From: Liolophura sinensis
Lineage: Eukaryota > Mollusca > Polyplacophora > Chitonida > Chitonidae
Assembly: GCF_032854445.1 (NCBI RefSeq)
Contig: NC_088303.1
Location: forward strand, 4,595,501 to 4,659,500
Reading direction: 5' to 3'
DNA length: 64,000 nt
The position numbers were made by a program, and so were the translations under genes. Shown here piece after piece: positions 7,083 to 36,000 of this stretch; position 1 is the stretch's first letter; each line of letters opens with the position of its first letter. The notes beneath the pieces were generated by a model. The model made no database searches. It saw only the letters and a program-made list of their open reading frames with translations, and had not been told where the DNA came from.

Positions 7083-10000
7083 TCACACCCATGAAAAGTG
7101 CAGGTTATTTGTTTTAAGAACAGGTCTAACTTTTACACTGTCCAGCATTTCTATTTCCTTCTTGATCAACCAGTCGGAGTATGTGGTTGCTCCCCTCCGG
7201 TCAGCTAAGGACTCCAGGTACTCTCTCAGTGCTCCCTTCTTCTGTGAAGCCTCACGTGTATAGCCTGTCCTTGAAGCCAGGACTGGAACAATCAACCACA
7301 AGGTCAGCTCGATAAAACACAGATATTCTCCCTCCACCCTGCCTCTAACGCACACTACACGTTTCACAGGAGCCTTCTTTTATCTATGCTATTTTCCTGC
7401 CCAATATTTTCCCCAAATATTTTATCACATATAAACAAAAGTGAACAAATTATGCAGATAATGCTTATATCTGGAATACATATACATGTTTGTACATGAA
7501 AGTTCATTTAGACGTTCAACAGCTTCCTACTTGTTGAGCCTTGACAACGCAAACACTGATCAGTGACTCCTAAGAACTGAGAAACAAAACAGCAAAGTTT
7601 ACAAACTGTTTCTTTTAATGACTGTATAACGCACGCCTTTTCAGGAGTTTTCAGACAGTCTGTCACGGTGTAAATGACAGCAGTTAAAATGTAACGTCCT
7701 TCCCACATTATCTAAATCTGTTAAAATAATTAAATTGAATGTCTTCTGTGCCAAAGTGTTCGATATTTTTAAACAAAAATAAAGCAACTTAAAAATATGC
7801 AGGAAAGATTTTGATGCCTAAGCCTGCTGACTATACAGATCAACTGTAGTTTCTGTTAAGTTACCTCGGGCAGCTGGATCTATCTCTGTTGGTCTGTTCT
7901 CTTGATTTTTGTCCATTTCCTGTTGTAAAAGCCAGGACTCGTATGACTGGTTCTTCTCAGACTCCGCACGTTTCCTAAAAACAGTGTAGTCAGATCATAA
8001 ATTACAATCAGTAAATGCTGATTTCTATACCAATACATTTTCGCCAGAGAGTTCCTGATAAATATGGTAAATTACGCATTTGACCTAAACTTTAAGTTGC
8101 CATTTTGCTTGATTTAGAGAATTTTATTAATTGATCTCAAAAGGTTTTCTTTGAGGTTTGTTTGGAAGGTAAGATACATGCCACTTGGAAAATGTGAAGT
8201 TTTATTACCAAAAGTAATATTTATGACCTTTATTTGCCTTTATCTAAAAATAACTAAATACTTTGTGAATCATTGTTACAAATTATATTTAGCACTGGAA
8301 ATATTGCTGATACATGGAACGTTCATGCATTATATGAAAGACAAAATAAATGAAAGGGAAATAAGACACTGGAACCTAGTCTACTGAAGATGTGCTGGTA
8401 AGACCTACATAGAGAAGAAACAGGAAAAAGAGATTGTAGACTGGATTATGTGTATCTATAAGTCCATACTGTTTCTCTGTTAAAATACATTTACACTGTA
8501 CTACATTAAATCGCATAAGTAACCAGAAACCCAGTGTAATGATAACGAATAATTAATTCCAGTTTTATTTTCGAACCTTTAACGCCGTCTCACTTGACTG
8601 CTAACATATGTCATTGCATGGGTTATATGGAAAGTTCAACAGGAAATTTCAAAGATTTAATAACTCCAAACACAAAAGAAGAAAAACAAAATGTACAATA
8701 ACTATTTAAAAGACACATGAATGCAAAGGAAGAATAAAAAAGAGAGAGAAAAGATAATATAAGTAAAGAAACTGCTGGAAAAAGAGTTTTTTAACCAGAC
8801 AAAATACTACGTCTTGGAGCCTGTTTTAAAGTAAAGATGTCCATTCTGTTCAGCATGAATATAACACAACACCAGAAAATATACCATAAAACTAAATATT
8901 AAAGACATATTGCCATGTAGTTATACAGGGGAAATCTTTAAGACAAGCTCCAAGGGAGCTATACTGTAACATGTATAATGCATGGGATTGACAAAGACAG
9001 AACAAAGGAACTCCTGCGCTACATAACTATGATAATCACATACAGTATCATACACATGAAGTTCTCATGGTTCTCTGTAACGGCCTAAAGTTTAGTCTCA
9101 AAATGCTTCAGTCATGTCAGTAAGGGCAGAGTACCTGCCCTTGCCCACTAGGTGTCCTCACTATTTTGATGTGACAGAGATGACACTTGATACTTACAAT
9201 AAGCTCAATTGGCATTTCAGGTGAGACAAAGTCGGGGCTTTCTCAAACTAACGTACGCAAAAGGTGTGATTTTACAGTAGCTGCTACATTGCATATACAT
9301 CTGTCTTTCAACTGGGTAGCTCCACTGGCACCTACCAAATCAGGTCTTTTAGCTGCAGAGGTTTGGGACAGCCCCCCCCCCCCCCCCCACCACTCTATCT
9401 GACCTAAATCTGCGTGAGCTTTCGAGGCCGTGAAATGCTGATCAGGCTTATTACTGTGCCATCAAAACATTCAAATGTCCAAAAAGAAGCCAAAACTGAT
9501 CACAGACAATATTCGACCCCAACATCTTCCATCATGTCCATACAACCACCACTTCCCATTTCCCTTTACCTCAAAACAGTGGAGACATTATGTGAGTAAT
9601 GACAGATAATCTGGACTGCTCTAAGACTTGAGACTTTACTGTACTACCCATGCCTACCTGCCGGTGTCGAGTTGCCTGGAGATTATACATGGAAAAAACA
9701 TACAAAATGTTAAACACCTAACTAGTGATGTTTTGATCATCATATTTTAAGCTAAGAAAATGCAACTCTATCAACTCAAATGCCAGTCTTAACACAAGTA
9801 TTTCACATTAGAGCCAGAAACATAGAAACTGGAAAGGAAAACATATAAACCAAACTGTGTGTACTCTCTCCACAACAGATCATTCAAATCTATCAAGGGG
9901 CCTCCGTGGCTCAGTCGGTTAGCGCGCTAGCGCAGCGTAGTGACCCAGAAGCCTCTCACCAATGCGGTCGCTGTGAGTTCAAGACCAGCTCATGCTGGCT

Positions 10001-30061: not shown

Positions 30062-33000
30062 TTACTGTATATTTAGTTTCCTTCGAATTGGTTTGAGCAG
30101 AGGAGTTACTGCCCTTGCTAATGGGCTCTTCCCTGGCAAGGGTGTCTTTTTGTTTGCTGCAGAGTTATTCCTTCCTGGTGCGGAGGCCGTGATCTGGGCG
30201 ACTCTGTGAGCGGCTATGGCAGAAGAGCTGGATGTTGATACAAGGGCACCAGAGGCAGGCAGACTCCCATAACTCGTTGTCTTAGTAACTGTTCTTCCAG
30301 AGGATGGCGGAGGCATTTTGGAGGACTTATTCTAAGATAAGAGCAAGATAATTGTAACATCAATAGTCAGTCCCCAAATGTTTGTTCAATCAACATTTCA
30401 TGGCCAAAACATTCCACCCGCCTCAGTCAATCTGGTGATAAAAGGGTGGCGCTTCATGTACACTGTACATGTACACCTTGTCCATAACATGATTCACTAG
30501 TGAATGATTACCTATTTCATACAAGCTTTACACATTCATTCTTATATCACATTTTGTGTTGCCTTGTTAGTGTATGGTCCATTATAAAAGACAGAAGGCC
30601 AATGTCAGAAGACGGATGTCAAAAATTCCTACCTACTGACAGAAAGAACAGCTCGCTCCTAAACCTGTTTAGTTGCAATTAAAATTGCCATACAAAAATT
30701 CATTTAAGCATAATCTTGTCCTGCAATATTTCTGACATGCATGGTGAGAGCATCCATTATACTTGTGTGGTGAGGTCTTTCATTTGTCAGCGACCACCAC
30801 GTGCATGTTGGTGCAATACCTACCTCAATGTTGGTGGCCTCTACCCGTCGTGTAGCCGCACCCAGCTCCACAGTCCTCACTCGTTTGGCAAAGTGCAGTG
30901 AGCAGAGAGTCTCCGAGACATGTCGCTCTGTAGGTGCTACCTGTACTATCATCAGGGTCTTACTGTCACCCTCTAGGAAAGAGAAAATCACACTGACCAG
31001 TTGCCTGTGTGGCATAGTCTTACCGTCTCTACCAATAACACAAGACTTTTACATGAGTACTTCATGTTTCAGGCGCAACAGAACTATGGTTACAGCCACT
31101 CTAGTGATACTGTAACATGTATTTAGTGACACACCCATCTACTGTTACATGTACAGCAACACTTATGGTTATGACTACACAGGTGATAAATGTACACTTA
31201 TTGTAGCATACATCTACATGTAGTTACAGCCACATCTACTATTACAGCCACCTGTACTGATACAATGCCATAACACATTACGCTAGAATAGATTATGATG
31301 ATGATAACTTCTTTAGGTGGCAGTTCCATTCTAATGAGTGATGTAGTAAATGGCAGATGTAAACTTTGTGGTTTGAGCGTCCACCTCAAAGACTGCAGAC
31401 ATGGCATCAAAGCCAGATCATGTCATACTAAAAACTTTAAAAATGGTACTTGCTGTTCAGCACAGAGATGGGTGTGTTAGAGAAACGAAACAGGACCAGT
31501 TGGCCAAGTGTCGGTACAAGGCATAATGTGATTGGGTGGGGTGTCATGTCTGGTGTCTTTTCAGTGGCTGCATGGTGCCAGTGGTTGCCTTGCCAATAGA
31601 TGACACAGGAAAAAGACACACACTGATGATTCCTCGTCATATTTATTTGATTGATTTGATTGGTGTTTTACGCCATACTCAAGAATATTTCACTTATACG
31701 ACGGTGGCCAGCATTATCGTGGGTGGAAACCAGGCACAGCCCGGGATGAAACCCCCGACCATCCGCAGGTTGCTGGCAGGCCTTCCCACTTACAGCCGGA
31801 GAGGAAGCCAGCATGAGCTGGACTTGAACTCACAGCGACTGCATTGGTGAGAGGCTCCTGGGTCATTACGCTGCGCTAGCGCCCTAACTGACTGAGCCAC
31901 GGAGGCCCCCCTCGTTGTCATAGGACTGAAAAACTGTTACACTTTACTTTGTAACAAACACATCTACTGTTACTTGTACAAGCACAATAAAGTTAAAGGG
32001 GCCTCTGGGGCCAAGTGCAGCGCAATGACTCCGTAGCTCTGTCCAGTACAGTCACTGTGAGTTCAAGTACCGCTCATTCTGGCTTCCTGTCTGTATAGTT
32101 GTGGGACTCCAGAGCCAAATTTCTTCCCACTACAATGGTTTAGAATAAAACACCAATCAAGTAAGTACATAGGGTTACATCGATGTACTTACTGAGGGAA
32201 TCCTGTAGCAGGTAGGTGAGCCTGGAATTCCTGTAGGGGACAAAGTTCTGTTTGGTTCTTAGGGCGTGGATCACATCCCCCAGGGAGGACAGCGATTTGT
32301 TGATGTTCTGAGCCTCCTTCAGACGAGCCCCGTCGGCTCCAGACTTACTGACGCGCTCTGACCCTGCCAGGTCGACCAGGTTCAGATGACCTGAGGAATA
32401 GAACACACTGCTTGTTTGCAGACTGAACTAACTAAACTATTCACAAACAGAGTTCTTCCACAAAATGAACTTGTTTAGGTAGTAAACACATTCACAACCT
32501 CAGCTCCTTTAGAAACTGAAGTCATCTACAAAATAAAACTCATTCAGAAGCAAAGCTTGTTCAGGAGCTAATATACCTGTGCTTGCTGAGTTGGTGGCCT
32601 TGTTCACCCCGAGGACAGTCACACACAGTATGGAGTGGGAGCGAGAGGAGTGGTCATTCATGCTGGTCATCGCCATGGCTCTGTTCTGCTGACCCACAGA
32701 AAATACCTGACAACAGAGAGAGGGGAAAAATACCTGACCACACAGAGTGGAAAAATACCTGACAAAAGAGAGAGGGGGAAAATTCCTGACAACACAGAGA
32801 ATGGAAAAATACCTGACAACAGAGAGGGGGGAATATATGTGACAACACGGAGAGTGGAAAATACCTGACAACAGAGAGGGAGGAAAAATACTAGACAACA
32901 GAGAGGGAGGAAAAATACCTGACAACAGAGAGGGAGGAAAAATACTTGACAACAGAGAGGGAGGAAAAATACCTGACAACAGAGAGGGAGGAAAAATACT

Positions 33001-36000
33001 TGACAACAGAGAGGGAGGAAAAATACCTGACAACAGAGAGGGAGGAAAAATACCTGACAACAGAGAGAGGGGAAAAATACCTGACAACAGAGAGGGAGGA
33101 AAAATACCTGACAACAGAGAGAGGGGAAAATACCTGACAACAGAGAGGGAGGAAAAATACCTGACAACAATACCTGACAACAGAGAGGGAGGAAAAATAC
33201 CTGACAACAGAGAGGAAGGAAAAATACCTGACAAGAGAGAGGGAGGAAAAATACCTGACAACAGAGGGAGAAAACACATCTGACAACAGAGAGAGGAGAA
33301 AATACCTGACAACAGAGAGAGGAGAAAATACCTGACAACAGAGAGAACGGAAACATGTCTCACAAAAGAGAGGGGAGAAAAATACCTGACAAGAGAAAGG
33401 GGGGGGGGGGGGTGGGGAAATAAGTGACAACAGAAGGGGAAAAAACTATATGACAACAGAAGGGGATAAAGCTATATGATAACAGAAGGAGGAAAAATAC
33501 CTGACAAGAGAGTGAGCAACAACACCAGATAGCAGAGAGGAAGGAAAAATACCTGACAACAGAGGAGTTGGGGGGATATATGACAATAGAAGGAGAAAAA
33601 TACCTGACAACAGAGAGGAAGAAAAGTTACCTGACAACAGAAGAGGAGAAAAAACATATGACAACAGAAGGAGGAAAAACACCTGACAACAGAGCGAACA
33701 AAAACACCAGATAGCAGAGAGGGAGGGAAAATACCTGACAACAGAGAAGAAGGAAAAACACCAGATAGCAGAGATGGAGGGAAAATACCAGACAACAGAG
33801 AAGAAGGAAAAATGCCAGATTGCAGAGAAGGGAGGAAAATATCTGACAACAGAGGGGGAGGAAAAATACCTGAAAACAGAGTGAAATATTCTTGAGTACG
33901 GTGTAAAACTCCAGTCTCTGTGGACTTTTTCTGGAATATCCTAGCTATTGCCAGTTTGCATTTGTTATATATGTAAATCCTACTTCATGATAACCAGTTT
34001 AACTACATATAGGTATACATGAAAGACCCCTCACAACTCTATAAGCAGTGTACACCACTCATTGCCACAAATTTCCCAAGAACAAATTGCCACCAAAGCC
34101 CTGGGAACAGACTGTCACCAATTTCCTGAGAGACTGACACCCTTACCCAGAGAACAGCTTGCCAGAGAATACTGTTTACCATAGCTTTACTTGAGCCCCA
34201 GTTCAAATGTATAATCCCTTTAAGTAACATCTACACTGACCGTATTGACATCATTGAGACTGGTAACCTTGACAGAGGTCAAACCAGGAACATGGTAGCC
34301 TCGGTCTGGGCTCATCTTTACTTCCAGTTTATCCACCTTGTCCTTTCTTAATAAATCCCTGGAATGATTAACATGGATGTTTTCACGATACAGCCATTAA
34401 GTGAGGACTACAAGTCAGTCTAATGAAAGTGAGGAATACAAGTCAGTCTAATGAAAGTGAGGACTACAAATCAGTCTAATAAGAGTGAGGACTACAAGCC
34501 AGTCTAATGAAAATGAGGACTACAAGCCAGTCTAATGAAAGTGAGGACTACAAATCAGTCTAATGAAAGTGAGGTCTACAAATCAGTCTAATGAAAGTGA
34601 GGTCTACAAGTCAGTCTAATGAAAATGAGGACTAGAAGTCAGTCTAATGAAAGTAAGGTCTATACAAGTCAGTCTAATGAAAGTGAGGAATACAAGTCAG
34701 TCAAATGAAAGTGAGGTCTACACAAGTCAGTCTAATGAAAGTGAGGTCTACAAGTCAGTCTAATGAAAGTGAGGTCTACACAAGTCAGTCTAATGAAAGT
34801 GAGGACTACAAGTCAGTCTAATGAAAGTGAGGACTACAAGTCAGTCTAATGAAAGTGAGGTCTAAAAGTCATTCTAATGAAAGTGAGGACTACAAGTCAG
34901 TCTAATAAAAGTGAGGTCTACACAAGTCAGTCTAATGAAAGTGAGGACTACAAGTCAGTCTAATGAAAATGAGGACTGCAAGTCAGTCTAATGAAAGTGA
35001 GGTCTACACAAGTCAGTCTAATGAAAGTGAGGACTACAAGTCAGTCTAATGAAAATGAGGACTACAAGTCAGTCTAATGAAAATGAGGTCTACAAGTCAG
35101 TCTAATGAAAGTGAGGACTACAAGTCAGTCTAATGAACGTGAGGACTACAAGCCAGTCTAATGAGTGAGTGAGTGAGTGCTTGGGGTTTAACGTCGTACT
35201 CAACAATTTTTCAGTCATATGACGACGAAGGAATCATTAGGGTGCATGCACGTGTAATGTGCCTCCTTGTTGCAGGACGGATTTCCACCGCTCTTTTATT
35301 TAGTGCTGCATCACTGAGACGACTTACCGAAGGCAAGTAAGCCGCCCCGACCCGCCCGAGCCATTATACTGATACGGGTCAACCAGTCGTTGCACTATCC
35401 CCGTCATGCTGAACGCCAAGCGAGGAAGTTACAACTTCCTCTTTTTAAAGTCTTAGGTGTGACTCGACCAAGGATTGATCCTGGATCTACCGGTCCCGAA
35501 GCGCCAGTCTAATGAAAGTGATGACTACAAGTCAGTCTAATGAAAAATGTTGTACTGCAAGTGAAGAAAAGAATCTGCATGTATGTTCTTCGGGTTTCTC
35601 CACAGCTGGTCATCTGATTTACTTGATACATGTAGGTGTATTGCTGAGGAGCCAAGAAAGAGTAAAGTCACTAAAGATTAATATGCAGATAAGTTCATAA
35701 TGATACCATGCATACTATTCTCAGTTGTATAATGAATAGCATACAAGGATAGGCATGGCCTTTATTCCTGGTGGCAAAGATGAGTTATTATCAATGGGCA
35801 GAGCACCTGTCACATTGTACATGTAGGTTCATTATTTGTTGGTTCTTCTTGGGGCTTTTGCAGGGTAACATTTGATCTTGCTATTCATTGTTGACTTGCA
35901 ATGAAGAATTCTGGTGTCGCTGTAGGCATATAAGGGCATGTCCACATTGTTCTTGCCCAAAGAAGCAGTAACCAGACCCACATGACATGTAATCCATGTA

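Follow-up and report, generated by a model that had tools for sequence, protein, structure and literature searches.

Tandem copies of a kinesin splice acceptor in the chiton Liolophura sinensis: a mirage-like minisatellite and its relatives at other splice junctions

Introduction

Where near-identical splice sites lie in a row, the cell must distinguish the real one from copies that may be just as good. Most work on how the spliceosome chooses among such sites has used artificially built duplications. Here we discuss a case found in a 64,000-nt stretch of the genome of the chiton Liolophura sinensis (contig NC_088303.1, positions 4,595,501 to 4,659,500; hereafter the window, within which positions carry the prefix w), where a 27-bp tandem array runs into an exon of a kinesin gene on the minus strand. 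Where did this array come from, how good are its copies as splice sites, and how can the gene live with it?

As judged from its predicted protein, the host gene is a KIFC3-like kinesin-14: in a comparison that drew on solved structures only, its motor domain was closest to KIFC3 (5wde, E 5.1e-130), with the runner-up at 8.3e-76. We consider it probable, at roughly three chances in four, that the array is a minisatellite derived from the splice junction itself, known as a "mirage" in lancelets, and that the gene tolerates it because the copy attached to the exon is singled out by its exon context. The phenomenon would thus be extended from lancelets to a mollusc, and it bears on the lengthening of introns and possibly on their origin.

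A splice junction repeated in tandem

The exon with the amplified acceptor (w32577-32706, minus strand), placed by alignment to 5wde, occurs once in the genome assembly; a second haplotype copy was also sought there and none was found. The same assembly contains eight successive hemocyanin matches, as expected of a mollusc. The intron before it measures 1534 nt (w32707-34240, minus strand; donor AATACG/gtcagt and acceptor TTGTCAG/GTATTT, the slash marking the splice junction) and follows a kinesin exon at w34241-34358 (minus strand) that ends in phase 0 (...DVNT). At the junction, w32707/32706, the gene strand reads TTGTCAG/GTATTTTCTGTGGG.

Tandem Repeats Finder (TRF) calls the 27-mer array at w32700-33881. 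It is directly continuous with the functional exon-intron boundary and overlaps the exon by seven bases, GTATTTT. Wraparound alignment to the gene-strand consensus GTATTTTTCCTCCCTCTCTGTTGTCAG gives 46 rows, of which 44 are complete units, in line with the approximately 40 tandem copies of a 3' splice site that a preliminary description of this locus had claimed. Both sides of the boundary are present in the units, namely the pyrimidine tract of the intron, the CAG and the first seven bases of the exon (TTGTCAG/GTATTTT); on this composition, too, the junction and the unit alignment agree with the earlier account. Of the 45 unit ends, 31 show an AG in the same register. The repeated exon bases are genuinely exonic, as the V-F that they encode aligns without a gap to KIFC3 across the junction, and that these seven bases encode conserved residues favors descent of the array from the junction. 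The minus-strand frame of the exon remains open from w33471 to w32512 (320 aa), so that the open frame noted earlier within the array does exist.

The units are not equally alike. From about w32865 to w33254 they are mostly near-identical, while divergence increases toward both edges of the array, a pattern that agrees with mirage turnover. As a source of the units, a dispersed repeat was rejected because the unit is found nowhere else in the genome: a 22-base piece of it, allowing at most two mismatches, has 26 matches, all 26 within w32700-33881, and the same piece read backward has none.

The distal edge of the array abuts, exactly, a tail fragment of a tRNA-like short interspersed nuclear element (SINE) that lacks the SINE body (w33882-33917, plus strand). 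Tails of this family are frequent, with around 18 other places in the window. A SINE origin was considered and rejected, as the edges of arrays in 354 kb (the window and 29 further loci) lie no closer to SINE tails than after rotation: 1 edge within 10 nt (mean 1.8 after rotation), 4 within 20 nt (2.3, P 0.2) and 4 within 40 nt (3.5).

Decoy acceptors as good as the real one

Splice sites were scored with a weight matrix iterated on 71 kinesin exon matches from the first 20 fetched loci, which yielded 65 acceptors and 57 donors. The matrix is a small one, with exon edges deduced from homology and with some junction arrays lying inside the loci on which it was trained. On this scale the real acceptor at w32707 scores 10.9 bits, the 63rd percentile of the 65 acceptors. 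Besides it, the array holds 35 AGs; 29 of these reach at least the 10th percentile of the genome acceptors, and 12 score at least as high as the real site. The earlier view that the spliceosome meets many near-identical acceptors before the real one is therefore borne out by splice-model scoring.

The AG/G columns of the units show conservation of 0.89, 0.80 and 0.80 against a mean of 0.88, and since they are no better conserved than the remainder, the decoys bear no sign of selection for use; constraint on them was accordingly rejected. The 29 good decoys are spread over all three frames (5, 8 and 16 at offsets of 0, 1 and 2 modulo 3), which also favors an array that is tolerated rather than translated. 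Among the five in frame, two are open into the exon (offsets 27 and 573) and three run into a stop.

Comparison with known systems

The preliminary description knew of no case this extreme. This part did not hold, as mirages are known from lancelet genes and six other kinesin junctions in our chiton sample head arrays of the same type. According to two reports (PMC3087553, PMC3902484), mirages are minisatellite-like tandem duplications of exon-intron boundaries, at either the 5' or the 3' splice site, in lancelet genes such as Adh, globin, troponin C and PGBD5. Many units carry AG/GT, the number of units differs between two haplotypes, and the interior evolves in concert while the edges diverge; the lancelet results suggest that mirages do not interfere with splicing.

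The kinesin array displays four structural features of mirages: sequence from both sides of the boundary, continuity with it, usable-looking signals (29 of 35) and a uniform interior with divergent edges. As in the lancelet genes, its tandem units span the boundary, many contain AG/GT, the middle is homogenized, and the copy attached to the exon would be the functional one. It differs in its mollusc host, in its 44 complete units (3-6 in BflGb6) and in its unit length of 27 bp, compared with 150-160 bp in BflGb6 and 10-72 bp in Adh3. Among the listings returned by literature searches of open-licence PMC articles, no report of such arrays in a mollusc appeared. The kind is thus already known. 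What appears to be new is its presence in this phylum, the number of copies and the frequency measured here; the occurrence of both polarities in this genome may be counted as new as well.

Two further systems share part of this architecture. The human gene 6-16 (IFI6), described in Nucleic Acids Research in 1995, reportedly contains a minisatellite with multiple splice donor sites. There, likewise, splice sites serve as units; however, they are donors instead of acceptors, and use of multiple sites is claimed, while the chiton array is known from its sequence. Intron gain by tandem duplication across AG/GT has been proposed (Rogers 1989 and later work, as discussed in PMC3087553). Such a duplication is also seen here, except that an existing intron was lengthened and the sequence reveals no new intron position.

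Arrays of the same type at other junctions

To place the array in a wider context, we examined 29 pieces of 10 kb, picked for kinesin matches, together with the kinesin gene of the window. Junctions were called by the matrix, and each was represented by a 22-nt probe of 14 intronic and 8 exonic bases. Near copies were defined as having at most five mismatches to the probe within the adjoining 2.5 kb, a junction with at least three of them was scored positive, and shuffled probes served as the control.

In the automatic test, the window gene contributed 19 junctions and the other loci 172, and 8 of these 191 had at least three near copies of themselves; the shuffled probes gave 0. At locus L012 three probes were positive, two of which lay within its own array and were removed, leaving 189 counted out of 191 tested. 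The positives then number six: the acceptor and the donor in the window, the acceptors at L002 and L004, and the donors at L012 and L028. L029, presumably an Eg5-like kinesin, escaped the automatic test and was included on the strength of a separate test of its own, in which its AG plus 16 exon bases had 16 near copies where shuffled probes averaged 0.09. Junctions heading self-copied arrays thus amount to 7/189 (3.7%, 95% interval 1.5-7.5%) in the kinesin sample with the window gene, 6/189 without L029 and 5/170 without the window gene. Some arrays lie close to a junction without spanning it (L017, two in L002, L016 and L001); these were inspected by eye and excluded from the count.

Both polarities occur within the window gene itself. 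The exon at w40422-40700 (minus strand), ending at w40422 with CACATCAGACAGGAG/gttagtcaaggg, is followed by a donor array at w38893-40440 (minus strand), whose units combine the donor with approximately 19 bases of the exon (CACATCAGACAGGAG/GTTAGTCAG); the junction probe has 28 near copies in it. Elsewhere, too, more of the exon is repeated than in the 27-bp array, with around 29 coding bases at L004 and the donor end of an exon at L012, and this again favors descent from the junction. The kinesin donor array at L012:7088-9105 also contains an inner copy with a longer exon stretch (match at 8709-8831), so that larger exon pieces can be duplicated too. At L028:2570-5834 the array is a 71-bp donor array with 35 near junction copies, only 4 GT sites of which have a good donor score; just before the GT, its unit consensus is unlike the real exon end.

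Outside the kinesin sample, and therefore excluded from 7/189, an acceptor array precedes an ankyrin-like exon in the window (w13653-14004, minus strand; 77-bp unit with two AG sites). It ends at the acceptor w13661; the junction probe has 7 near copies in it, and shuffled probes have none. The ankyrin label of this exon is weak (Pfam E 0.0089, below the cut-off) and stronger for the neighboring stretch. One decoy scores above the real acceptor (10.0 versus 6.1 bits), and the rest reach at most 3.4.

Minisatellites are common in this DNA in general. With a period of at least 15 and a score of at least 100, 84 arrays are found in the 354 kb, covering 15.5% at a median period of 51. The chiton genome paper assigns only 0.08% to a class that groups simple repeats and microsatellites with RNA (PMC11068029); many minisatellites may sit under its unclassified repeats. 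If arrays were seeded uniformly, about 1.8 junction-spanning births would be expected, with a Poisson P of about 0.003 for seven and 0.011 for six, an estimate that is rough, post hoc and includes the window gene. Probes placed in introns at 60, 150, 300 and 600 nt were positive in 12/191, 16/191, 19/191 and 30/190 cases. Exon probes at 20, 35 and 50 nt gave 4, 3 and 0 positives among 191, every one of them at L004 or L012. Arrays are thus common in introns and reach the boundary, and none are seen 50 nt inside exons.

We find this wider pattern, in which many splice sites of one genome have become minisatellites in both polarities, more interesting than the single array. With arrays of copied sites at about 4% of sampled junctions, the genome offers a natural test set for recognition across the exon versus scanning.

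Origin, tolerance and competing explanations

How might such an array arise and persist? A tandem duplication of a segment spanning the junction, comprising approximately the last 20 bases of the intron and the first 7 of the exon, would come first, after which slippage or unequal exchange would multiply the segment on the intron side, with partial homogenization. Copies would pile up only there because exon-side copies would damage the protein, and this intron-side growth would make the real site the last copy in acceptor arrays and the first in donor arrays. Exon context, such as the downstream donor and exonic enhancers, would then pick the copy attached to the exon, even though its score is no better than that of the decoys. 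If the first AG after a distant branch point were simply taken, acceptor arrays would yield a wrong copy, whereas recognition across the exon would account for both polarities. Descent from the junction, comparable scores and recurrence at other junctions in both polarities are observed here; that the kinesin exon is spliced normally, with recognition across the exon as the cause, is what we infer from them.

The branch point deserves separate mention. No YTNAY branch motif occurs in the consensus unit; the whole array contains 3, compared with 30 on average in base-shuffled arrays, and a scan of the last 714 nt of the intron w32707-34240 for YTNAY found none. For comparison, 68 of 96 sampled acceptors have YTNAY 15-50 nt upstream and 28 do not. 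Loss of branch motifs may assist tolerance at the kinesin array. As a general reason for tolerance it was rejected, as the good decoys of L004 have such a motif in 8 of 8 cases.

Several points weigh against a tolerated mirage. The absence of YTNAY from the unit and from those last 714 nt leaves the real acceptor without an evident branch point. The use of w32707 is predicted from the reading frame and protein conservation, and the exon bases common to the units of the 27-bp array number only seven. Most decoys are weak in the ankyrin-like array and at L028, and equal strength is thus not general. Finally, known mirages come from lancelets, not molluscs.

Among the alternatives, an improbable one survives best, namely that the units are bifunctional recursive splice sites. 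At recursive (zero-length exon) splice sites, a pyrimidine tract and CAG are followed by GT, so that acceptor and donor coincide. Splicing to a wrong decoy would regenerate a donor, from which further rounds would follow up to the last copy, so that removal of the intron would be stepwise or self-correcting. The 27-bp units do show this coincidence: GT directly follows AG in 26 of the 35 decoys, and of the 26 donors so formed, 23 have a score of 8.3 bits (42nd percentile of 57). However, AG/GT is rare in other acceptor arrays (1/99 AGs at L002, 0/45 at L004 and 4/28 at L029) so that tolerance does not depend on it. In addition, the intron spans only 1534 nt, and the units lack branch motifs. 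Dozens of such sites in tandem within a short intron are also unlike known recursive sites, and no intermediates are known. We would give equally little weight to the bolder claim that every unit is a complete acceptor-donor pair, that successive rounds of re-splicing, repairing wrong choices, remove the 1.2-kb tract, and that boundary minisatellites of this kind occur at a few percent of chiton junctions. Were re-splicing real, array length could drift freely and introns could grow from their own splice sites.

Slightly less credible still is a series of isoforms of variable length, in which alternative acceptors add repeat-encoded residues before switch I of the motor. Nine residues would be added by use of the decoy at offset 27, whose frame is correct and open; the decoy at offset 573 is open too, and the 6-16 (IFI6) minisatellite is titled as giving multiple splice donor sites. 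Yet among the 29 good decoys, 27 either miss the frame or reach a stop, leaving only 2 of 29 in frame and open, and KIFC3 (5wde) aligns without an insertion at the junction. The added residues suggested in the preliminary description are thus unlikely; a single step of nine residues is conceivable, but the idea does not suit the array in its entirety.

We regard it as quite improbable that the array has a regulatory role, in which its runs of pyrimidines would gather repressors such as the polypyrimidine tract-binding protein (PTB) and tune inclusion of the exon. PTB binds such runs, and the gene strand of the array is 76.5% pyrimidine with 32 CTCTCT in 1175 nt. In Caenorhabditis elegans, an intronic minisatellite has been statistically tied to multiple alternative splicing. 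Other arrays of this type in our sample, however, have quite different units. An assembly artefact is very unlikely, because the published assembly was built from PacBio HiFi reads with a mean of 8,347 bp at 14X (PMC11068029), which is longer than the array, and because the units differ among themselves in an ordered way and similar arrays lie at other junctions.

Other features of the window

The mirage-like array is not the only repeat in this part of the kinesin gene. A 28-bp array at w34399-35164 lies ahead of the preceding kinesin exon, starting approximately 41 nt upstream of its acceptor, and does not overlap the junction; on the gene strand its units contain CTGAC, a branch-point-like motif. 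Searches of the 64-kb window for RNA families and tRNA genes gave no matches. On the plus strand, the exon at w23458-23697 matches the 2Fe-2S thioredoxin-like family (PF01257, E 1.1e-11) and presumably belongs to NDUFV2.

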